A DNA stretch of 64,000 bases from NCBI GenBank assembly GCA_026421245.1, contig JAPKDJ010000005.1, positions 1-64,000 on the forward strand, read 5' to 3'. The position numbers and the translations under genes are program-made. This DNA is from Akkermansiaceae bacterium (GTDB lineage: Bacteria > Verrucomicrobiota > Verrucomicrobiia > Verrucomicrobiales > Akkermansiaceae). The notes under the pieces are model-generated. The model did not search any database, was not told the origin of the DNA, and saw only the letters and a list, made by a program, of their open reading frames with translations. Below, one piece after another: positions 102-64,000 of this stretch. Each line of letters begins with the position of its first letter. Within the stretch, counting starts at the first letter, position 1.

Positions 102-929
102 TTATGAGCTTTGTTCGTCAAAATGACTGAGCTTTTGGTGTCGTTCACGGATGAGGCGGACAACGAGGGCGATCCAGCCGGTTTGGTGGGAGGCGCCAAG
201 GCCCTTGCCGGTTTCGGCGTGGAAGTACTCGTGGAAGAGAAGGTGGTCATCTTCCCGTTCGATGTTGGGCTTCGCCAGGTTCGCTTCAGTGCCGGTCCCT
301 TTGCGCCAGGTGTTGCGAAACCACACCGTTGGGAGAATGTGGAGCGGGGCATCGTCCGGACCGTGATTGGTGACGGTGATGCGCCAGAGGAGGTCGTTGT
401 CGTTTCGCTTGGCAACCTCCTGAACGATGTCGAAGAACCGGTCCTCCTCGAAAACGCCGGTGTCCTCCAGTTCGTATTCGCTCTCATCACGGCTCCGGCG
501 ATCGTTTTCTTCCCGGAGACGAGTGTAGGGGTAGCGCGCCTGCGGGTATCGATAAAGCGCCTTGGTATACGAGTGAGTGGGGGTGCTGTCTTTGTAGTAG
601 TAGCAATCTTTGACGTCTTCTCCGTGGTTTCCCTGGTGACCGGTGAGGCCGTAGAGGCGTTCCTTTAGAATGGAATCGTTGGTGTTCCAAAGGGCGACAG
701 AAAAACACAGGCGGCATTTGCGATCAGACCATCCCTGAAGACCGTCTTCACCCCAGCGGTAGGCGCGGCGGCGGGAGTCGTCGTGGCTGAAAGTGTCCCA
801 GCTATTGCCATCGCCTGAGTAGTCTTCACGGACCGTTCCCCACTGTCGTTCGGCGAGGTAGGGCCCCCAGCGTTTCCAGTTGGCGGTGCGGGCAATGTCC
901 TCTTGAAGACGTTACTTTTCGGAATTCAT
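102..929 (-). pseudogene. MGH1-like (GH63-related) glycoside hydrolase remnant
   Basis: Frame starting at ATG 929 reads [37 protein letters not shown]...[13 protein letters not shown], then jumps to [32 protein letters not shown]- and C-terminal signatures of a ~850-aa family are joined in ~275 codons, with an in-frame TAA at codon 6 (912-914). Confidence 0.75.
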
Positions 930-983
930 TGGCGGCGTTCTATCAGAAAAATCCGCTTTGTGTGAATTGATTGGGAAGGAATC

Positions 984-2387
984 TTAAGTTCCACAGAAAG
1001 TCGCACAGACGACCTCATCGGGAGTTGGCGTTTTTTGATAGTCTTCAAATTCGGGCTGCTCTTGATAAGGCTGTTGCAGCACGCGGTGGAGTTTCATAAA
1101 GGTGGAAAAATCTCCCTTTTTGGCGTCCTCGATGACTTCTTCGACGCGATGATTTCTAGGAATGAAAGCAGGATTCACCCGGTTCATGACTGAAACGTCG
1201 GCTTGTCCCGCAGCCTCCCAGCGCTCAAGCCATTCTCGCGCAGGTGCGTCGTCGTTGAAGTTTGAAAGGAAAGGTTGTTCGCCGCGACCAAGGCTTCGAA
1301 AAACAAGAGTGAAGTCGGCTTTTTGCTCTGCCATCAGATCAAGAAGAGATTGGACCAGATCCCGGTTTTTGTTTTCCGGGAGGCCGATTTTTTTGGAGAA
1401 GATTTCGAGATGAGCTGTTTCGAAAATTGCCGGAAATTTTTCCAATTCAGCTTTGGAGAGTTCGATTGCTTTTTCTTGATCCTTATCGATCTGAGGAAGG
1501 AGCGCTTCTGCGAGGCGGGTGAGGTTCCATTGGGCGATGCCCGGTTGATTTTGATAAGCATAGCGACCTTGTCGATCAATGGAGCTGAATTTTTGGGCGG
1601 GATTAAAGCGATCCATGAAGGCGCAGGGGCCGTAGTCGATGGTCTCGCCGGAAAGGCTCATGTTGTCGGTGTTCATGACGCCGTGGATGAATCCGACACC
1701 CATCCATTGAGCGACGAGCTTGGCTTGGCGAACGATGACATTGCGGAGGAGATCTCGGGCGTTTTTTGCGTCGGGGTAGTGACGTTGGTTTGCGTAATCA
1801 ACCAGGGCCCTGAGACTTTCAAGGTCTCCCCGGGCTGCGAAAAACTGGGCTGTGCCAATCCGGAGGTGGGAGCTGGCGACACGGGTGAAGATCCCGCCTT
1901 TTTCGGGTTTTTCACGGAGGACTAATTCGCCACTGGAAATGGCGGCGAGGGCCCGGGTGGTGGGAATTCCCATGGCGGACATCGCCTCCGAGACGAGATA
2001 CTCACGAAGGACGGGGCCGAGGGCGGAGCGTCCGTCGCCCCGACGTGAATAGGGTGTTGGCCCGGCTCCTTTGAGCTGAATGTCTTTTCCTGAAATCTCT
2101 CCGAGAAGGATGGCGCGCCCGTCGCCAAGCTGCGGGACGAAGTGTGCGAATTGATGGCTGGCATAGGCCATGGCAAGTGGTTCGGCCCCGTCGGGGATGG
2201 CATTGCCGGAGAGGATGGCGAGTCCTTCCTCGGAGTGGAGGAAATCCGGGTCGATCCCGAGTTCGCGAGCGAGTTCCTCATTGACGGTGATGATCGAAGG
2301 TTGGATGACCGGGGTGGGGTGGACGCTCTCGAAGAAGCTGGCAGGGAGATTGGCGTAGGTGTTTTGGAAAGGCAGCTTCATCAGCAC
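984..2387 (-). CDS. selO: SelO/YdiU family protein adenylyltransferase
   Basis: 467 aa; ASHQFAHFVPQLGDGRAILLGE, LKGAGPTPYSRRGDGRSALGPVLREYLVSEAM, GFIHGVMNTDNMSLSGETIDYGPCAFMD; C-terminal CGT. Confidence 0.93.
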   Translation of the reverse strand: MLMKLPFQNTYANLPASFFESVHPTPVIQPSIITVNEELARELGIDPDFLHSEEGLAILSGNAIPDGAEPLAMAYASHQFAHFVPQLGDGRAILLGEISGKDIQLKGAGPTPYSRRGDGRSALGPVLREYLVSEAMSAMGIPTTRALAAISSGELVLREKPEKGGIFTRVASSHLRIGTAQFFAARGDLESLRALVDYANQRHYPDAKNARDLLRNVIVRQAKLVAQWMGVGFIHGVMNTDNMSLSGETIDYGPCAFMDRFNPAQKFSSIDRQGRYAYQNQPGIAQWNLTRLAEALLPQIDKDQEKAIELSKAELEKFPAIFETAHLEIFSKKIGLPENKNRDLVQSLLDLMAEQKADFTLVFRSLGRGEQPFLSNFNDDAPAREWLERWEAAGQADVSVMNRVNPAFIPRNHRVEEVIEDAKKGDFSTFMKLHRVLQQPYQEQPEFEDYQKTPTPDEVVCATFCGT

Positions 2388-2537
2388 CTATCCTAGACCG
2401 GATGCCAAACCGTGCGACCTTCGAATCGCGTTTTGGTTGGATCAACGTAATGAGGGAGCTTGTGACAAATATGTTTTCTGTAAGAAAGAAATGCTACGGG
2501 TGAAGACAAAACTCCCAGGATTTTTAGTTGGACCGAA

Positions 2538-2750
2538 TTGCTGATCCAGGACTTGGAGGCGATGGAGATGCCAAATGGAACCTCCGACAGGATCATGGCG
2601 GGTGATCGTCCGGTTGCCGAGCTGGTGAATCCAGCGACCGCCGAAGTTCCTACGCAATGGAACAGCGATGTCACTGGCGAAGATCTAGGCGCTTCGGTGG
2701 CTAAGGCTGAGGAACTTGGTGCGGCGATTGCACTTTGGGAGTTTGCTTAG
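2538..2750 (+). pseudogene. Possible VOC/glyoxalase-like protein fragment
   Basis: GDRPVAELVNPATAEVPTQWNSDVTGEDLGASVAKAEELGA resembles the ...GRPVAG...P..W...V.DVDAAVAKAEELGG segment of VOC-family proteins; short, with no complete domain. Confidence 0.4.
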
Positions 2751-4288
2751 TCGGCCGTTTTTAAGGCGCCCCACCAAGTTTTGTTGGGTTGGTAGTCGGG
2801 CTTGAGGAAATTGGCATGCTGTTTTTCAAGCTTGGCCTTGGTGGCTGAGTGGAGGTATTTCAACTGCTGTGCTTTCTTGGCGGCGTCAAACCGGGGGTCG
2901 GGTTTTGGGATGATGGCCCCGACTTCGGTGAGATGGGCAGTGAGTTTTGCGGAGAGCTTTTTGACAAGATCAGGCTGTTCTTTGGCAAGATTCTTTTCTT
3001 CGCCAATGTCTTCCTTGATATTGTAGAGCTCTTCGCGGCCGTCTTCGTAAGAGCGGATGAGTTTGTAGTCGCCTTCGCGGACAATGCTGGAAGGTTCGCC
3101 GCCTTGGTTCCCATAGTGTGGATAGTGCCAGTAGAGGACGCGCGCGGAGTGACCTCCTTTGAGAGCGGGGACGAGTGAGATGCCATCGACGTGATGAGTG
3201 GGGAGTTTTTCAAGTCCGGTGAGTTCGAGGAGAGTGGGGAAGAAGTCGGTGCCAGTGGCGAACTGGCTTGAGGTGGTTTCTGGCTTGGTCACGCCCGGAG
3301 CGACAATGTAGTAGGGCTGGCGGATGCCCCCTTCCCATTGCCGGCCTTTGCCTCCGCGTAAGGGCAGGCAGGCGGTGGCGAAGGCATCGCCGGAGGAGAC
3401 TCCGCCGTTATCGGAGGTGAAGATCACGATGGTGTTCTTATCGAGGTCGTGCTGCTTGAGGTGCTCGGTGACGATGCCGACGGCGTCATCCATGGATTCC
3501 ATCATGCCGCCGTAGATGGGGCAGTCCTGAACCTGGCGGACGGGCATGGTGCGGTCGTTTTTAAAGCGCTCCTTCACAAGGCCGGCGGCGGTGGCTTTCT
3601 TACGGTATTTCTCCCAAAGGTCAGGCGAGGTCTGGATGGGGCCGTGGACGGAGTAGAAGGAGAGGAAGGCGAAGAAGGGTTTCTTGGAATCCTGCTTGAT
3701 GAAGTTGACCGTTTCCTGTGCAAGGCGGGTCGGGAGGGCTTCGCCATTGGGGCCATCTTCGAGCTTGGGGTTGTTGTAGGGGGCGAAGTAGCCACCGCGT
3801 GGTGATCCGGAGCTATAACCGCCTTTATTGACATCAAAGCCGTGGGCCTCGGGGCCGGAGCCTTCGCCGCCGATGTGCCATTTCCCGGCGAAGAAAGTAC
3901 GATATCCACCGGACTTGAGAGCCTCGGCAACGGTGGTGATTTTGGCCGGGAGACGGTCGCCATTTTTGGAAGGAAGGACTCTGTCATTGCGTTTCCATTT
4001 CATACCGGTGGCGGCCCCGATCCAATCGGTGATGCCGACACGTGCGGGGTATTGGCCGCTCATGATGGAGGCGCGGGAAGGGGAGCAGACCTGGCAGGTC
4101 GAGTAGCCGTTGGTGAAACGCATTCCGCCTTTGGCGATAGCATCGATGTGGGGAGTTTCGTGGAAGGTGGAGCCTTCGATGGCGAGATCCTTGATGCCAA
4201 GATCGTCTGCGAGGATGAAGAGAATGTTGGGCTTTTCTGCCGCCAGGATGGGCAGGGTGAAGAGGAGGGAGGCGATGAAATTCCGCAT
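2747..4288 (-). CDS. Secreted sulfatase (arylsulfatase family)
   Basis: 513 aa; signal peptide, NILFILADDLG, canonical CSPSR (CQVCSPSRASIMSG), GKWHIGG. Confidence 0.95.
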   Translation of the reverse strand: MRNFIASLLFTLPILAAEKPNILFILADDLGIKDLAIEGSTFHETPHIDAIAKGGMRFTNGYSTCQVCSPSRASIMSGQYPARVGITDWIGAATGMKWKRNDRVLPSKNGDRLPAKITTVAEALKSGGYRTFFAGKWHIGGEGSGPEAHGFDVNKGGYSSGSPRGGYFAPYNNPKLEDGPNGEALPTRLAQETVNFIKQDSKKPFFAFLSFYSVHGPIQTSPDLWEKYRKKATAAGLVKERFKNDRTMPVRQVQDCPIYGGMMESMDDAVGIVTEHLKQHDLDKNTIVIFTSDNGGVSSGDAFATACLPLRGGKGRQWEGGIRQPYYIVAPGVTKPETTSSQFATGTDFFPTLLELTGLEKLPTHHVDGISLVPALKGGHSARVLYWHYPHYGNQGGEPSSIVREGDYKLIRSYEDGREELYNIKEDIGEEKNLAKEQPDLVKKLSAKLTAHLTEVGAIIPKPDPRFDAAKKAQQLKYLHSATKAKLEKQHANFLKPDYQPNKTWWGALKTAD

Positions 4289-4580
4289 GGGGTGGAGTTT
4301 GCTGATGAGAGGATGGGATTTCCAGCAAAAGCGTAGGAATGGTTGAGTGGATGACTTGTGACGATCTTTTGGGTGATGCTGATGCTGCCGGTCGTGAAAG
4401 TCGCGGGAGGGATCACCCCGTATCGGGGCCGGAAACGGGTGAAGTTGTATCGGAGCGGTCAGGGGTAAACCTACAATCGTGGGCTATGAAAAGTCCTGAG
4501 AAGTCAGAATCTGATCGAGGGTCTGCCGCTTTCGCTTTTCGGGAATTGACCCGGATAGTGGAACTGCCGGGCTGGGGAAC

Positions 4581-5900
4581 CTACCGATTCTCAATCCGAT
4601 AGACGTGGGATTTGGTGCGGAGGTAGATGGCTTTACCATCGGGGGCAGGGGAGGCCATGCAACCGTCGTCGAGTTGATTGGTGGCAATGACTTCGAGTTT
4701 GAGTCCGGGTTTGACGACGAAGGTTTTGCCTTTCTCATCGGCAAAGTAGAGGTGTCCATCGGCAAGGACGCCGGAGGCCGAGAAGTTTGTTTTGAGGGCG
4801 GAGTAGCCATCGATACTGCCTTTGTCGCTATTGACGCAGCTAAGGATACCGGATTCGGAGGTGAAGTAGGCCTTGCTTCCGACGACGACGGGTGAGCAAC
4901 GGCCTGGGATTCGTTTGAAGATGTCCCATTCGATGTGAGTCTTGGTGACGTCGCCGGTGAGCTTGTCATCGAGCCGGAGTCCGAGAAGGTGGGCCTTGCC
5001 GAGGCCGGTGTTGATGAGGGCCATTTTATTGCCGATGAAGACGGGAGCCACGGCGTTTGAGAATCCGTTGTAGGTGATTTTCCAGAGTTCTTTTCCGGTG
5101 TCTGCGTTGTAGCCGTAACAGGCTTTGGCGCCCGGTGAGACGAGCTGGCGGACACCGTTGAGGGTGACAAAGCTAGGGGTGGAATAGGATTTACGGAAGT
5201 CGCCATCACCCCGGATTTTTCCGCCCGGTTCGACGTCTCCGAAATCCGTCGTCCGGGGAGTTTTCCAGACCTTCTTTCCGGTCTTTCGGTCGAGGGCGAC
5301 GAGGTATTGCACGTCAATGCCATCCATGGAGAGGATGACGAGATTCTTGTGAAGGACGACCGAGGAGCCGGGACCGCGGAAGTGGCGGCAGGGGAGATCG
5401 CGGCGTTCCCAAACCTTTTTACCGGTTTTGCGATCGAGGGCGGCGGTGCCGTAACTGCCAAAATGGATGTAGACGTGGTCGGCGTCGATTGCAGGGGAGC
5501 AGGAGCCGTAGCCGTTGACGTGGTTACTGAGGGGTTCGGGGTCTTCGTTTTCGAAGAGGAGGAGGTCGTGGATCTTCTTGCCGGTGGCTTTGCCGAGGCA
5601 GACGGCATACATCTTTTTGCCGTCAGGGGTGGCGTTGGTGATCCAGACCTGATCACCCATCACAACCGGAGTGGACCAGGCGCGGCCGGTGACGGGAGTT
5701 TTCCAGACGATGTTTTTGGTCTCGCTCCATTCGGTGGGGAAGCCGTGGGGGGTGCCGTCGAGTCGGGGCGGAAAGATACCATCGTTGTTGGGTCCCCGGA
5801 AGGTGGGCCATTCCGCAAACGCGGGTGTCACAAGAATGAGCGTAAAAAGAAGTCGTAAGAGCATGAGAGATGAGTTTGACAGTTGGGGAAGGTGCATCAA
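4581..5900 (-). CDS. Secreted PQQ-like beta-propeller repeat protein
   Basis: 439 aa; signal peptide, WPTFRGPNNDG, repeated A.D..TGK..W motifs. Confidence 0.9.
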   Translation of the reverse strand: MMHLPQLSNSSLMLLRLLFTLILVTPAFAEWPTFRGPNNDGIFPPRLDGTPHGFPTEWSETKNIVWKTPVTGRAWSTPVVMGDQVWITNATPDGKKMYAVCLGKATGKKIHDLLLFENEDPEPLSNHVNGYGSCSPAIDADHVYIHFGSYGTAALDRKTGKKVWERRDLPCRHFRGPGSSVVLHKNLVILSMDGIDVQYLVALDRKTGKKVWKTPRTTDFGDVEPGGKIRGDGDFRKSYSTPSFVTLNGVRQLVSPGAKACYGYNADTGKELWKITYNGFSNAVAPVFIGNKMALINTGLGKAHLLGLRLDDKLTGDVTKTHIEWDIFKRIPGRCSPVVVGSKAYFTSESGILSCVNSDKGSIDGYSALKTNFSASGVLADGHLYFADEKGKTFVVKPGLKLEVIATNQLDDGCMASPAPDGKAIYLRTKSHVYRIENR

Positions 5901-55300: not shown

Positions 55301-55527
55301 TTATTTGGCAGAACGGGCCGAATCACTTGCCGTTCCCTGCTTCTGCCCGGTTTCCCGAAGATGAGGGCCTGCACCCTGTTTAATGGAGACCTCGCAAATA
55401 TCGTTTCGGCGCGCTTGTGTTGCCAGTGTTCCGGCGTTGGGCCAGAACAAGAAGATTGCGGCCACTAAAATCAAAGCGATTAGGGAGCGAAGAGGATTCT
55501 CCGGATCCTAGGATTCGGTATCGTCAT
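55301..55527 (-). pseudogene. Small membrane protein, translationally coupled, single-base frameshift
   Basis: ATG overlaps upstream TGA (ATGA). Frame 1 MTIPNPRIRRILFAP*; one missing base near CCC restores LIALILVAAIFLFWPNAGTLATQARRNDICEVSIKQGAGPHLRETGQKQGTASDSARSAK*. Confidence 0.5.
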
Positions 55528-58502
55528 TTTGATGCTTTGAAAAGTCGTTCGACTTCTCCTTGTGACAGAGGGTTGGTGAACCATGTTCCACTCATGGGCG
55601 GGGCAAAGTGGTGGAGTTGGGTTGCGTTGGCGTTTTGGAGCGCCTGCCAGTCTTGCAAGATCGTCGCTGTCGAAATCTCTCCGCGGTAAATCGTGAGGGC
55701 CCGATTATTTGGATCCAAAAGAATGGCGAGCGGCACCGAGGACGGTGGCGTGTGGTCGAAGAGTTTCTCTTGAAATTTGTGGATCCGGTTGGCTGATTCG
55801 GCATCGATAAGTCCCCACGGAAATGGAAATTTGGTGCGATCAATGAGATTGTATGCGGGAGAAATATCGGCGGCAGGTCCGCCGATACCATTGATTGCCA
55901 GAGCCAAAATCTCCAGATTTGCGGCGCGGATTTTGTCCGCATTGGAGGTGAATTCCTCGAGGGAGTCTTTGCACGAACTGCAAGTCCCGGACCAAAGAAC
56001 GAGAAGACGTGCCTTACCGTTGGCCGCCAACAACTGCTGTTTGGCCGCTTGATCCCGGAACGTGAGCAAGGGGAAGGGAACCCGAGCCGGAAGGATGATA
56101 CGGGCCTGACTCTTTGTTCCCGCGGCCTCCAATGGGTGTTGTTTTAAGGTCACCGTTTTCCGTTTCTTCATCGCGGTTGCCTTGCCGGTGCCTTGCTTCA
56201 AAAGGAACCGGCCGCCATCGCCGTTGAGGCCCTCAAAAAGCTCCTTCCCTCCTCCCGGCCAAGTGACCTTGGCCTGACGGTATCCTTGCCTGTTGCCCAT
56301 ACCGAAGTGCAACCACTTACTGGACTGGGAGAGGAAGAGGTCGCCCGCCTTAACTGATCGGACCAAGTGTTTGTCCCCTTGAGAGGGAAGGAGTTCGACG
56401 ACAGCGCCAATGGCATCGCGGTTGCTGCTGGTGCCTTCAAGTTTGATCGAAACTGACGGCGGGCTTTTGCGCTGATTCAGCATGAGCCGAAGTCGTGGGC
56501 CACTGCGGTTACGATACCAAAGATCGAGTCGGCCATCTTGATCCCAGTCCACAATGGCAAGCCCGCGTCCATCCTCAATGTGATCTAGCCCGGCAAGGTG
56601 GGACATCTCATGAAATCGACCTTTTCTACCATTTAGGAAAAAGCGATTTCGCTCGCTCCCACTCCATGAATGTCCGTTGCGGACCAGTTTCATCAGGTCC
56701 GTCCAGCCGCGGGCATAGTCATTAATCTTTTCTGAGGGCGACACGACCTGTCGCCAAAAGAAGCTTCACAAATCATCATCGCGCGTATTCGTCAGATAAC
56801 CGTTGGCGACAACGAGGTCCTGCCATCCGTCGTTGTTTAGATCCGCGAAACCCGAGCTCCAGGCCCAACCACCATTGGTGACGCCGCTCTCCAAACTATG
56901 ATCCTGAAATACTCCATCGTTCGCTGAAAAAAGAGTGTTGCCTCGCGCCATCCGGGTTTTGCCATCGCTAAACTTCCGCTGAAAAGCGACCCGTTGTCCG
57001 GCCGACGAGAACATGTTTCCGACGAAGAGATCGGCCTCGCCATCTCGATTAAAGTCCCCCCACGAAACTGACATTCCGGCAGCCATATCTTCGGCGCCAA
57101 CTTCCGGGGCACTATTGACGAATTTTCCGTCATCATTTCGATAGAGGCAGTTTCGTCCGAAATCGTTTGCGACGTAGAGGTCCGGATCACCATCCCGATC
57201 GAAGTCCTCCCATGAAGCGGCGAAACTCCAGCGGGTGTTGTTTTGATCCATGCCTACCTGCTTCGTGACATCGCCGAATTTGAAGTCACTCAGATTTGCG
57301 AGGAGCACGTTACGGCCTCCATTTTCGGCGTCATTGAATGGCGTGGGTGAGGAGGCCTCGAAGCCGCGTTTCCCGGAGACTGAGTCATCGTCCGCGCTGT
57401 AAACGCAGGTGTAAATGTCGAGGTCTCCGTCACTGTCGAAGTCTGCCGCACTCAGCGAAAAGGGGTAGGGGGCTCCGGGGAATCCTCCCCTTAACTCGAA
57501 CTTGCCGGTTCCGTTGTTTTCCGCGAAAGCAATCATCGCGATGGTCGCCACGACAAGATCCTGATCCCCATCGTTGTCGAGATCGACCAGCAAGGCGCTT
57601 CGCGAATCTTCCAGCCACGCGACGCCCCATTTAGAAGCGACTTCTTTCGCAGTGCCATCTGCCTGTTGGAGGTAAAGTTGGTTTGGCAGACTCCCTCCAT
57701 CGCAGACGTAAATATCCTCGAGACCATCACCATTCACGTCTCCCACGGCGATTCCGTGGTGACCGGTCATGGCGAGGTCTCCGATGCGGGTGATTCGTTG
57801 GGACCAGGATCCAATCCCGCGGAGGACCTGCGCTTCGAAGCGCGGGTTCTTCTCGAGAGCCGCTTTCGTGACATCCTGAAACCAAGATCCCTCTGCGCGA
57901 ATTTTTTCGAAGTTTGCGACCTCTAATCGCTGTAATTTTGGTGGTGATTCGTCTGTCCAAGAACAAAGCCAGGTTGCCGAATACTCTCCGTCCCCGCGGT
58001 TTGCTTCCACATGAACCCGTGTTGTCAGATTTTCGACGCCGATGACTTTGAGTTTCAGTTCACCCAGGGCGTGAATTTCTTCGATAAGAATTTTTGGACT
58101 TATTGATCTTACTTTCCCGCCGGTTCCCACCCGAACGGCAACACTGTGGACGGTATGTATTGGTCCTGGGGTTTCGAATTCGGAACAGAGGAATCCTGGG
58201 GCAAGAAGAGAGGTGGCTTCCTCTTCATTTTGAGCTTTCGCAAGTCGGTTGAGCTGAGAGAGGGCCAGAATTGAGAACTTTTCACCGAGCCAAGAGTCGC
58301 TAGCTTCTGCCACGGGGAGGTTGAAGTTGAGAGGGACTCCGGTAAGGGGTGTTTTGGATTCTACAGGAACCGGCAAACGGTCTGGGCGCGCCATTTCTTT
58401 GAGTCGAAGTTTGACCAATTCATCGTCTACAACGATTGGCTCGGCAATGGCCGTGGTCGACAGAGCGGAAAATAGGAACAGTAAGTGGCGGGTTAACCTC
58501 AT
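55524..58502 (-). CDS. CRTAC1-like FG-GAP/VCBS + ASPIC/UnbV + redoxin protein, interrupted by in-frame UGA (56766-56768)
   Basis: ORFs 56766..58502 and 55524..56744 share one frame (start separation 1758 = 3x586). Joined: ...NGYLTNTRDDDL-(UGA)-SFFWRQVVSPSEKINDYARGWTDLMKL...; VCBS repeats N-terminal, SVSIKLEGTSSNRDAIGAVVEL...SSKWLHFGMG (ASPIC/UnbV), LLVLWSGTCSSCKDSLEEF (TlpA-like). Confidence 0.75.
56737..56755 (-). promoter_or_regulatory. bSECIS-like hairpin downstream of in-frame UGA (candidate)
   Basis: GGCGACA-GGUCG-UGUCGCC, starting 10 nt after the UGA codon end; apical GGUC at nt 21-24 counting the UGA as 1-3. Confidence 0.4.
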
Positions 58503-58993: not shown

Positions 58994-60463
58994 CTAACTG
59001 AAGAGCTCGAGCACAGGCTTTTCCTTCACGAGTTCCCTGGGTTGGTTGAGGTGGTTCATGACCATGGTTTCGGAATCGATCCCGAAGGCATGGTAGATCG
59101 TGGCAAGTAACTCGCCGGGGTGAACGGGGTCTTCGGTTGGGGCGGAGCCGGTTTTGTCGGACTTCCCGTGGACGTAGCCTTGCTTGATTCCAGCTCCTGC
59201 GATGACGCTGGTGTAGCAGTAAGGCCAATGGTCTCGGCCATCGGCGCTGTTGCCGTTGCCCGAGGTACTGACGCCCTTTTGCGGGCTACGGCCAAATTCA
59301 CCGACGGCAACGACGAGGGTTTCGTCGAGGAGCCCGCGGTCATCGAGATCCGAGATGAGGGTGGAGAGGCCATTGTCGAGCATGGGACCTCCCTGATTTT
59401 TGATGCGCTTGGTGAGGTCCTTGTGAGTGTCCCACGAGTGGTTGTCGGAGTTGGCGACTTTTGGCCAAATGACTTCGACGACACGAGTGCCGGCTTCCAC
59501 CAATCGTCTGGCGAGAAGGCAACTGTCGCCAAAGGTATTTTTGCCATAGGCTTCGCGGGTTTTGTCGCTCTCTTGTTCGAGAGCGAAGGCTTCGCGCGCC
59601 CTTCCGCTGACGATGAGATTGAGGGCCCGGTCGTAATATTCATCGAGCGAGTAGTTTTCGACCGCTTTGTCGATGGTGGGCATTTGCGCATTGATGGCCG
59701 TGCGGAGGCTGGCGCGTCGTTTGAGCCGCAGTGAAAATACGTCGGGGCGCAACTGGAGGTCATCGATTTTGATGCGGGCCATTTTGGCCATGTCCATGTC
59801 ATCGCCACCCGGATAGAGGGTGTAGGGATCGTAGGATTTTCCGAGGAAACCGGCGCTTCCACCTTTGCCGACCACGTTGCTTTCCTGAAGAGGGCGCGGC
59901 AGCATCACGAAGGGCAGCATGGGCTCCTCCATCGGGCGCATTTTGACGAGGTTGGCTCCGAAATTTGGAAAATCCTTTGGGCTGGGTGGCTCGAGTTGGC
60001 CGGACGGGCTCACCTTGTCCGTAGTGTAGCCGGTCATCATTTGGTAAATCGCAGCAGTGTGATTAAAGAGGCCGTTGGGCGTGTAGCTCATCGACCGGAT
60101 CATGGTGAACTTGTCGTTGATCTTGGCGAGGTTCGGAAGGACTTCGGTGAAGTTGATCCCCGGGATTTTGGTCGGGATGGACTTGAAGGAACTCCGCACG
60201 TTGTCGGGCACGTTCTCTTTCGGGTCCCAGAGATCGAGGTGGCTTGGTCCTCCTTGAAGATAGACCATGATGATGCTTTTGGCTTTTCCCCAACCGGGAG
60301 CGCCAGATTCCTTCTTTTCCTCGGCGAGGGCCTTGGCCTGAAACATGGTGCCAAGCGACATGCCCAGCATGCCCGCTCCTCCAACTCTTAATACGTCACG
60401 GCGACTAGGGCCGGCGGAGGGATCGCAGACGTCTTTTCCTATTTGTCCTGGAATTCTAAACAT
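58994..60463 (-). CDS. DUF1501 domain-containing protein
   Basis: 489 aa; [78 protein letters not shown]. Confidence 0.95.
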
Positions 60464-60487
60464 GGCTTTGTTTTTGGTGGTTGGAGA

Positions 60488-63400
60488 TTAGTGGTTGAAG
60501 AGGAAGGCGGGGGTGTTGATCAAGGCCCAGGCGAGATCCTGGGCGCCGGTGAGCCGACGTTCTGTGAGTTGCTTCGTACTGAGAGCTAAATCATTTCTAA
60601 GAAGATCGTGCCCTGGGTCGGCGCGAGGAACTTTTTCAAGCATTACTGCTTTGTTGCGAAGGTCATTCAGGATTGGATCAACGGGGAGAGGCTTCTTCGC
60701 TTGGGCGAGGCTCTGATCCAGGGTCTTGAGAGTTACGTCATTCTCGTGGAAGTATTTCGTGATCTCCCCAGTTTGCTTTTCGTTACGCTTCTCTTTGGTA
60801 AGGGCGAGAACGTTTTTAATGTTCTCCGGAATGGCGAAAGGCAGGGGCCCTTGCTTTGTCGTGACCGAAAGCCGAAATTTTCCAAGCGTGTGTAAGTCGT
60901 CGTAAGGCTGCCTGAGAGTGAATCGAAGAATGCTGCCTTCTCCGTTTCCGACGGGTTGCTCGCTTCCAAAGGTGGCCGTTTGGTTTTTGCCAACCTGCGG
61001 AGAAATCGCCCAACCGGCGTTTGGTCCGCCGGGCTTTCCATCGATGGCCTTTGCGACCTCGTAGTTCGCTTGGCTAAAGCTGGCCTTGGCGGTGTTAAAT
61101 TTGACCCGTTGGAAGTTCTTTGGATCGGACGCTGGTGCGACCTCCAACTCAATTTCACCGAGAACGAAGTTGCCGGCCTGCCGCCCAGGGCCTTTTCCGG
61201 GGAGTCGATCGTCAGTAAGCATCTCAAGCCGAACGGCGGTGATGCCGCTGAGTTGAGTGTGCGCGGAGAAAGTGTAGTCGGTCTTCCCATTATTGCCCGT
61301 GGCGATGATGGCCTGGTCGGCTTCAAGGGTCAGAATAGCTCCATTGGTGGATTTGAGATCGACGGGCTGAAGGGGAGTCCAAGGGGTGCCTCCTGCGGCA
61401 AGTCCCTTTTCCCATCCTGAGATTTTGGCGGGAAGGGCAGCGTCGTAGGCCTTCTTGTCGCTCTCGAGTTTGGCGATTTGATCCTGGCGCTTCTTTTCCT
61501 CGGCATCAATGCGAGGTTTGATCGCTTTTTCATGTGCAGTGACCGCCGACTTCGCGCCAGCGATATCGGCTTCGCGTTTTTTCTCAGCAGCGGCGAGAGC
61601 GGGATCGCGCTTTGTGAGATGTTTCGCCAAGGCCTCCTCGAGCGTGGCGTGATCTTGATCAATGTCGGTGCTAAAGGCTTTCAAGGTGGCCGCGATTTCG
61701 GCCTCTAAAGGAGGTCGGTTAAGGATGCGGTAGAACAATTCCGCAATCAGTTCGCGATCGTCTTTTGATTCCTTGGCGAGCTTGGTGATGGCGTTGTTGG
61801 GATCGGCGATGGCGTCGCCCACGGTGGGGCCACTGAGGAGAGCCATGATCGGCCCCAGTTGCATGTCGCTGTTTCGTTCGCATTCGCACGAGCTTTCGCG
61901 AACCGGGCGCCCGAAGTTGGCGAGGAAACTATCGGGGAGTTTCACTCCGACATCAGGGAGTGAGGAGGCGCGGGTGCCCTTGGGAACACCGGGGAATCGG
62001 CTACTGGCTCCAGTGACGGAGTGAATGGAATCGTAGAGAACTTCAGCGGGAAGGCGACGGGCCTTGGCGTGGGAAAAGTTGATGGTGTCATCTTCATTCC
62101 ACTTGTGGGTCTCGATGGAGAGTTGGTAGGTGCGGGATTTGACGATGACCCGCATGAGTTCACGGACGTTGAAACCGCTCTCGATGAAGTATTTGCTGAG
62201 CCAATCGAGAAGCTCGGGGTTGGAGGGAGGGTTGCCGGCGCGGATGTCGTCGAGGGGTTCGATGATGCCGGTGCCCATCATGTATCCCCAGACACGGTTG
62301 GCGTAGCTGGAGGCAAAATAGCGGTTGTCGGGCGAGGTCATCCACTCTGCCAGTTTATCGCGACGGCTGGCGTCTTTCTTTTCCGGGTGGTCGGCCTCGT
62401 AGGGGAAGGACGGCGCGGTCACCTCTCCGGTGCGCTCGTGCGTGACTTCTGCGTCGTTCTTTTGATAGATGATTTCGTAGAGTGGCTTGGCTCCTTCGAC
62501 TGCGGTGCCACCGATTTTGTCTTTGCCGCTCGCGGGATCTGCCTTGAGTCCGACTTGAGCGAAGAAGGCGGCCATTTCGTAGTAGTTGTCCTGCGTCCAT
62601 CGCTCAAAGGGATGGTCGTGACACTTGTTGCAATTAAAACGAGTCGCGAGGAAAAGGTGGGTGGTGTTTTCCATGGTGTCCTCCGGGGTGCGGAGGATTT
62701 TGAAATACGAGGCAGGAGGATTGTCCTTGTTGGAGCCGGTCGCGGTGATGACCTTGCGGGCAAACTCATCGTAGGGGGTGTTGTCGGTAACTTCCTTGCG
62801 GATCCAGTCGCGGAAAAGCAGGGCTCCCTGTGGGGCGAGAAACTTCCGATTCACCTGCAACATATCGGCCCACTTGTTTGTCCAAAATTCGATGAATTCC
62901 GGGTTGCCAATCAAGGAGTCGATCAAGGCGTCACGCTTCACTTGTGAATGACGCGTGTCGGCGAGAAACGATTTCACTTGGTCGACGGTGGGCGGGAGCC
63001 CGGCGAGGTCGAGGTAGATGCGACGAACAAAGTCGAGATCGGTACAAACCTCCGAAGGGAGGGTTTTTATCCGTTTCCATTTCTCCGCTACCAGATTGTC
63101 GATCTCATTGAACTTGGGTGGATCGGCCCACTCGAATCCACTGCGGTCGCCCATCGCGGTGACTGTGGTGGCGGCGTAGGCTCCTTCGTAGCGGACGAGA
63201 ATGGGGGCTTCGCCCCGGCGCACGACTTTGATGAGGGCGGGATATCCTTTTACGGTTTCCGCCACTTCGCTGTTGCCACTGGTGAGGACTGCTTCGGAAG
63301 TGACGTCGCGAGTTTCGCCGCCGGGATAGGTTGCGATCACCCGCATTTGCTGCATGGAACCAATGTTTTGGACGACGGGGTTGAGGGGGAAGACATCGAT

Positions 63401-64000
63401 CTTTTCGGCCTTGATTTGCTTCTCCTCAAGCTTGGCGCCGTTGGCAATCCAGGCGCGCACGATCTCGTAGTAGTCATTGCCGGGCTTGGTTAATTGACCT
63501 CCTTCGTGAGGCACGGCGGAGGTGGACTTGAGAAGCATCAAACTATCATCGGGTGAGGCCAGATTGACGCGGCGTGAGGCGATGTCATCGGTGAAGGCCC
63601 GGACATCGTAGAGAGGGTCGTAGCCGCGAAGGGAGAGTTTGAAGCCATTCTTGCCATCCTTGGCTCCGTGGCAGGTTCCGGTATTGCAACCCATGCGGGC
63701 GACGACCGGGTTGACGTCTTTTGTCCAAGCCGGAATATACTCCTCTTGCATGCGTGACACCTCTACCGCAATTGCCGCGGTTTTCCCGCCGATGGAGAAT
63801 TTGAGGCTGGAATTTCCATCGGAGATTCCGCGGATCACTCCGGTTTTGGAAATGGTGACATTCTTACCTTGGACACTTTTTTCGGCAATGCGGGTGACGT
63901 CGATGATGTCTCCGGAATCGAGCTCGGCGGATACGATGACTTGAGCGTATTGATAGGGGCTATCGATCGTGACGATGCCTTTGGTGCCTCGTGGAAGAAC
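60488..64000 (-). CDS. DUF1549/DUF1553 (PSD1-type) protein, 5' end beyond window
   Basis: Frame open to the window edge (...VLPRGTKGIVTIDSPYQYAQVIVSAELDSGDIIDVTRIAEKSVQG...); GCNTGTCHGAKDGKNGFKLSLRGYDPLYD, FVRRIYLDLAGLPPT, FNCNKCHDHPFERWTQDNYY. Confidence 0.94.
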   Translation of the reverse strand, partial: VLPRGTKGIVTIDSPYQYAQVIVSAELDSGDIIDVTRIAEKSVQGKNVTISKTGVIRGISDGNSSLKFSIGGKTAAIAVEVSRMQEEYIPAWTKDVNPVVARMGCNTGTCHGAKDGKNGFKLSLRGYDPLYDVRAFTDDIASRRVNLASPDDSLMLLKSTSAVPHEGGQLTKPGNDYYEIVRAWIANGAKLEEKQIKAEKIDVFPLNPVVQNIGSMQQMRVIATYPGGETRDVTSEAVLTSGNSEVAETVKGYPALIKVVRRGEAPILVRYEGAYAATTVTAMGDRSGFEWADPPKFNEIDNLVAEKWKRIKTLPSEVCTDLDFVRRIYLDLAGLPPTVDQVKSFLADTRHSQVKRDALIDSLIGNPEFIEFWTNKWADMLQVNRKFLAPQGALLFRDWIRKEVTDNTPYDEFARKVITATGSNKDNPPASYFKILRTPEDTMENTTHLFLATRFNCNKCHDHPFERWTQDNYYEMAAFFAQVGLKADPASGKDKIGGTAVEGAKPLYEIIYQKNDAEVTHERTGEVTAPSFPYEADHPEKKDASRRDKLAEWMTSPDNRYFASSYANRVWGYMMGTGIIEPLDDIRAGNPPSNPELLDWLSKYFIESGFNVRELMRVIVKSRTYQLSIETHKWNEDDTINFSHAKARRLPAEVLYDSIHSVTGASSRFPGVPKGTRASSLPDVGVKLPDSFLANFGRPVRESSCECERNSDMQLGPIMALLSGPTVGDAIADPNNAITKLAKESKDDRELIAELFYRILNRPPLEAEIAATLKAFSTDIDQDHATLEEALAKHLTKRDPALAAAEKKREADIAGAKSAVTAHEKAIKPRIDAEEKKRQDQIAKLESDKKAYDAALPAKISGWEKGLAAGGTPWTPLQPVDLKSTNGAILTLEADQAIIATGNNGKTDYTFSAHTQLSGITAVRLEMLTDDRLPGKGPGRQAGNFVLGEIELEVAPASDPKNFQRVKFNTAKASFSQANYEVAKAIDGKPGGPNAGWAISPQVGKNQTATFGSEQPVGNGEGSILRFTLRQPYDDLHTLGKFRLSVTTKQGPLPFAIPENIKNVLALTKEKRNEKQTGEITKYFHENDVTLKTLDQSLAQAKKPLPVDPILNDLRNKAVMLEKVPRADPGHDLLRNDLALSTKQLTERRLTGAQDLAWALINTPAFLFNH

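Follow-up and report, generated by a model that had tools for sequence, protein, structure and literature searches.

The window analysed here is a 64,000-nucleotide stretch of an Akkermansiaceae bacterium (GenBank assembly GCA_026421245.1, contig JAPKDJ010000005.1, positions 1–64,000). On its reverse strand, an open reading frame (ORF) of 578 codons runs from 58502 to 56766 and ends at the TGA at 56766–56768, beyond which the same frame stays open as far as the TGA at 55524–55526. A preliminary description of this DNA had proposed that the two ORFs are one frame parted only by the first TGA, and the frame was confirmed on both sides. As that description had also stated, the first start listed for the downstream ORF is a GTG at 56744, which lies within a hairpin. 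With the internal UGA read as selenocysteine (Sec), the locus would comprise the following features.

55524..58502, minus strand: complete putative selenoprotein gene, with 992 sense codons (UGA counted as Sec) and a terminal TGA at 55524–55526
58443..58502, minus strand: putative signal peptide (MRLTRHLLFLFSALSTTAIA), from the appearance of the sequence
56475..57755, minus strand: FG-GAP/VCBS beta-propeller, residues ~250–676, with repeated DxDxDG-type motifs (Pfam, AlphaFold, 9etn)
56766..56768, minus strand: in-frame UGA, predicted to encode Sec579 in the motif DDDL-U-SFFWRQVV (homologous sites and model)
56737..56755, minus strand: candidate bSECIS hairpin, nt 14–32 counted from the U of the UGA, with the loop GGUCG at 56744–56748 (folding, covariation)
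56223..56414, minus strand: UnbV_ASPIC domain, residues 697–760 (Pfam PF07593, 2.3e-10, above cut-off)
55638..56111, minus strand: C-terminal ResA/TlpA-like thioredoxin-fold domain, residues ~798–955 (Foldseek, weak Pfam match)
55971..55982, minus strand: CxxC motif CSSC of the redoxin domain, residues 841–844 (sequence)

Comparison with the relative G026 suggests that the DNA beyond the 3′ end of the gene, previously read as a coupled downstream ORF that is also broken, is ordinary intergenic sequence. This relative has no co-oriented ORF downstream; instead, a convergent UPF0047 gene starts 8 nt past the gene end, and a broken downstream operon partner is thereby ruled out. No conserved partner gene was found among 59 upstream and 59 downstream neighbours of family members, in which the commonest domains occurred only 5–6 times. 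Upstream in the window, co-oriented DUF1501 and PSCyt2/PSD1 genes occupy 58994–63838 (minus strand), an association that is not general in the family.

Compared with G026, the gene shows similar conservation on either side of the UGA, with 72% identity upstream and 71% downstream, and in both halves the differences are dominated by third codon positions, as expected under coding constraint. This similarity is one of four lines of evidence that the internal TGA is not a real stop. Coding sequence likewise flanks the UGA on both sides in homologs, as in other bSECIS selenoproteins. The preliminary description had suggested inspecting the same position in homologs, and UGA was confirmed there: it occupies precisely this codon (DL-U-SFFWRQVV) in more than 150 homologous genes from Verrucomicrobiota, Planctomycetota, Acidobacteriota and Myxococcota, and at each of the 97 distinct sites extracted from homologs, although these and the other genome and sequence counts are not independent and carry no phylogenetic correction. 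Each of the long homologs listed from 115 related genomes had exactly one internal TGA.

Across GTDB genomes, at least 112 stretches match the DNA pattern of the site, and nearly all of those listed encode the same protein. The listed matches come from Verrucomicrobiota (Roseibacillus, Akkermansiaceae, Rubritalea and others), Planctomycetota, Acidobacteriota, Myxococcota and one MAG labelled Proteobacteria. A search of plasmids gave five distant matches only, at ~30% identity. The source genome itself holds 11 further family UGA sites, or about a dozen copies in all. Three family UGA sites lie within 11 kb of that genome (G000:C4:67000-77941); one of them, a member of the second clade described below, has only 48 open codons upstream and may be frameshifted or decayed.

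A plain nonsense mutation, which would leave a pseudogene or a truncated 578-residue propeller and was the main alternative in the preliminary description, could draw on the lack of an intact co-oriented gene in the neighbouring downstream sequence and on the errors that MAG assemblies contain, but it is refuted by the recurrence of a conserved UGA at the same codon across many genomes from several phyla and at no fewer than 11 other sites of the source genome, by the coding constraint on both gene halves and by the intergenic nature of the downstream gap, so that its probability is negligible.

The hairpin begins 10 nt 3′ of the UGA and has the form previously described, GGCGACA-GGUCG-UGUCGCC, with a 7-bp stem and GGUC at nt 21–24. 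Pairs 15–31 to 20–26 close the GGUCG at 21–25, and the outermost pair, 14–32, is present in the window and not general. An extension of the stem through the flanking CUUUU/AAAAG, suggested earlier, did not hold up: it is unconserved, with pairs 11–35 and 12–34 found in 15–20% of sequences. Published constraints for bSECIS elements are a loop of 3–9 nt, a stem of 4–16 bp, G in the first two loop positions, a spacing of 16–37 nt and an MFE <= -7.5 (PMC13188914). The corresponding values here are a loop of 5 nt, a stem of 7 bp, GG, a spacing of 17 nt and -13.5 kcal/mol. A search of Rfam with the hairpin returned no matching family.

The RNAfold energy has a z-score of -1.71, and 15 of 200 shuffled sequences fold equally well; by itself, the hairpin energy is therefore not beyond chance, and the MFE was rejected as weak stand-alone evidence. 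Comparison across genomes, unlike the lone hairpin, places the pattern beyond chance. The combination of UGA and hairpin has one match in the window and none in 100 shuffles, and a similar pattern occurs in 26 of the 115 related genomes, with no matches to a reversed control pattern. The GGU loop is kept in homologs, in which G22 and U23 are invariant (82 sequences). Across 51 distinct hairpins, 28 cells had both sides changed, compared with 3.0 in shuffles; 91.5% of cells were paired, compared with 83.4; and the covariation score was 0.301, compared with 0.132. None of 500 shuffles reached any of these three values.

The covariation can be followed at the level of codons. The third base of an Arg codon (nt 16–18) tracks the first base of its partner codon for Ser, Pro, Ala or Thr (nt 28–30), giving the pairings CGA/CGG-UCG (Ser), CGC-GCG (Ala), CGG-CCG (Pro), AGG-CCU (Pro) and CGU-ACG (Thr). 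The change from CGG..CCG to AGG..CCU alters both bases of a pair and leaves the amino acids unchanged, and is thus a fully synonymous compensatory pair. As a control, UGA forms carrying WRQV retain a mean of 5.8 of 6 pairs (n=144), whereas sense-codon forms with the same residues retain 3.6 of 6 (n=20).

The genes for Sec synthesis and insertion, which the preliminary description had proposed to look for, are all present in the source genome: selA (407 bits), selB (299.5 bits), selD (387.8 bits) and a tRNA-Sec gene (selC; 55 bits) with a UCA anticodon. The selD gene (G000:C68:142009-142938, G000 being the source genome) contains one in-frame TGA, so SelD is itself probably a selenoprotein. A selA gene is present in each of the 33 related genomes that carry UGA copies, compared with 61 of 115 overall (p 2.7e-12, ignoring relatedness). 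Similarly, among Acidobacteriota genomes a strong SelA match was found in 42 of the 43 that carry UGA forms, as against 8 of the 20 with sense-codon forms. No convincing selA was found in three non-verrucomicrobial MAGs that carry UGA copies (G487, G488 and G492), likely owing to the incompleteness of these MAGs. Each of the three has 4–13 matches to the site pattern.

Nearby downstream stem-loops can generally stimulate readthrough, and the close stem-loop found here could act in this way if the UGA were decoded without Sec, by near-cognate Trp or Arg insertion or by programmed leaky termination. This explanation is very unlikely given the full Sec machinery of the source genome, the presence of selA in every relative with UGA copies, the agreement of the hairpin with bSECIS constraints and the invariant GU core of its GGU loop. 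Furthermore, the listed family matches show neither UAA nor UAG at the site, and close sense-codon homologs show no Trp there, both of which speak against it. Sec insertion at the UGA at 56766–56768 is, on these comparisons of sequence, almost certain.

The predicted protein begins with the putative signal peptide, and in roughly half of the family a Cys lies near the N-terminus, as in lipoproteins; export from the cytoplasm is very likely. Pfam matches to the propeller lie above cut-off (PF13517, 2.7e-43; PF01839, 2.3e-22). The C-terminal domain matches PF00578 (AhpC/TSA) at 0.0011, below cut-off, and Foldseek aligned it with ResA structures (E ~1e-8, TMt ~0.8). The AlphaFold model, for which 39 family members were used, has a pLDDT of 87.1 and a pTM of 0.89, with the pLDDT falling to 77–85 near residues 570–620. 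Its best fold match in the PDB is mouse CRTAC1 (9etn); next come thioredoxin domains of the ResA/TlpA type, which match the C-terminal part.

The CSSC redoxin motif noted earlier was recovered at residues 841–844, and its CxxC is conserved in the family, with C841 kept in 97% and C844 in 93% of 73 members; P924 of the same domain is invariant in alignment A1. Around the Sec, residues D577, L578, U579, S580, W583, R584 and V586 are invariant. The preliminary description had placed Sec in a redox protein, which remains plausible; the Sec itself, however, lies outside the redoxin domain, at the end of the propeller region and ~260 residues upstream of the redoxin motif. In the model, a short helix spanning residues 579–587 begins with Sec579.

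Further clades share the Sec site. In a second Sec clade, with the motif VDL-U-S-x-[LF]W-[RS]-x-VV, the 3′ side of the hairpin has moved by 1 nt, and GGUC is still found at nt 21–24. Members of this clade (VDLUS[CSD][LF]W[RS][ST]VV) form convergent neighbouring gene pairs in three genomes (loci L292, L295 and L296); in the L292 pair, at 262–3264 (+) and 3259–5538 (-), only one of the two proteins contains a redoxin domain. A third clade, from Acidobacteriota, carries KDT-U-SxFWRxVV. CRTAC1-like forms with DL-U-[LA], also from Acidobacteriota (loci L348, L363 and L364), have GAVA after this motif and GGUC at nt 24–27, and apparently represent a further Sec clade.

Close homologs with a sense codon at the site, mostly 43–63% identical in the Sec region, have Ala, Ser, Gly, Asn, Gln, Asp or Glu in place of Sec, and keep the neighbouring amino acids while much of the hairpin pairing is gone. 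Cys was found at the site only in a distant clade (DYC-xxFW/DYC-xxYW) of ~30–35% identity, on scoring at most 10 candidates per genome, a procedure by which rare Cys paralogs could be missed. According to the preliminary description, a residue unrelated to Cys at this position in homologs would speak against Sec. Such residues do occur in some close homologs, but these have lost hairpin pairing and so provide no argument against Sec in the UGA versions. At one site (L330, G808:C9:28600-29200), Ser (TCG) replaces Sec and 5 of 6 hairpin pairs are kept, as if it had been recently converted from a UGA form; its genome also has UGA forms. In a tree of the Sec region, based on a short alignment with a midpoint root and many open forks, main-clade sense-codon forms fall into roughly three groups, each nested among UGA forms, a pattern that suggests an early origin of Sec in the main clade and several later losses.

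The same replacements bear on what the Sec does. The retention of the surrounding motif with A, S, G, N, Q, D or E at the site implies that the fold needs no chalcogen, and such residues would be unusual substitutes for a catalytic redox residue. Sec could instead be inserted as a metal ligand or in a structural or regulatory capacity, with the UGA mainly coupling full-length expression to selenium supply. Propeller proteins bind metals and ligands, and a truncated propeller would arise under Sec shortage. Such a non-catalytic role is possible but rather unlikely, as nearly all members, in several phyla, retain Sec despite its cost, the CxxC redoxin domain is retained alongside it in the main clade, and the modelled helix N-terminus suits a reactive selenol.

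It is proposed, with a probability of roughly 0.88 for the reading as a whole, that the gene encodes an exported CRTAC1-like protein with Sec at the UGA; an exported oxidoreductase is the best guess at its function. SelA would make Sec-tRNA(Sec) using selenophosphate supplied by SelD, and SelB would deliver it to the ribosome on meeting the hairpin with its GGUC loop, yielding an exported protein of ~110 kDa. Sec579 may then attack an oxidised substrate (a peroxide, an S-oxide or a disulfide) and be re-reduced by the fused CxxC domain or by a partner. A position at a helix N-terminus usually raises the reactivity of a selenol or thiol. Redox catalysis in which the fused domain recycles the Sec is about as likely as not. 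One member of the second clade lacks a redoxin domain, so recycling through a fused domain cannot be universal.

The decoding arrangement resembles that of the E. coli formate dehydrogenases, the bSECIS prototype, in its UGA, adjoining hairpin with a GGUC apical loop and SelA/SelB/SelC/SelD. In contrast with known bSECIS selenoproteins, the protein is unrelated to them and its close non-Sec homologs, among the candidates scored, carry residues other than Cys at the Sec position. The architecture meanwhile follows that of the CRTAC1 family, which is defined by an FG-GAP/VCBS propeller followed by UnbV_ASPIC: the domains PF13517, PF01839 and PF07593 are found here, and CRTAC1 is the best non-TPR sequence match in the PDB as well as the best fold match. 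Unlike CRTAC1, the present protein has a Sec helix after an NG motif and a C-terminal ResA/TlpA domain, and many family members have TPR repeats. The ResA-like WAxxUGC (NF041054) and UGC-type TlpA selenoproteins share a thioredoxin-like domain; by its family name, however, the NF041054 type has Sec within the redoxin motif, whereas here the redoxin domain keeps CxxC and Sec lies far upstream. The NF041054 profile scores 20.4 bits against a cut-off of 300, which places the protein, with its CSSC rather than UGC, outside that family.

A 2026 list (PMC13188914) of 119 prokaryotic selenoprotein families does not include the present one, with the families of Haft and Tolstoy 2025 compared as they are tabulated there, and no NCBIfam 20 model scores above cut-off for it. 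Planctomycete selenoproteins reported in PMC4807772 also illustrate Sec use in the PVC superphylum; those named in the main text are FdhA and FmdB, and further candidates from that study may overlap with the present family. According to the deep-Sep paper (PMC12013277), every known selenoprotein now seems to have homologs with Cys, and selenoprotein families lacking such homologs may be filtered out. The scarcity of Cys homologs may thus be why methods based on Cys/Sec pairs missed the family, which, judged from the open-licence PMC literature and NCBIfam 20, is apparently large, secreted and so far uncatalogued.

It seems reasonably probable that these proteins constitute an uncatalogued selenoprotein superfamily whose members are exported propellers of the CRTAC1 type and carry Sec at a single fixed position; those of the main clade would also have a fused thioredoxin-like recycling domain. 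The superfamily would span at least four phyla, and genomes of marine Verrucomicrobiota would each hold about a dozen of its genes. On this broader reading, Sec, where lost, would have given way to residues other than Cys, so that it would do a job that Cys cannot fill.

Present surveys lean largely on Cys/Sec pairs, and a widespread, multi-copy family whose near homologs are not Cys proteins is of the sort that they can miss. Many of these genes are likely annotated as two fragments or as pseudogenes in such genomes and are probably intact. The replacements by Ala, Ser, Gly, Asn, Gln, Asp and Glu offer a natural experiment on the respective roles of Sec and Cys. Sec use would extend to large exported propellers in environmental Verrucomicrobiota, Planctomycetota and Acidobacteriota.
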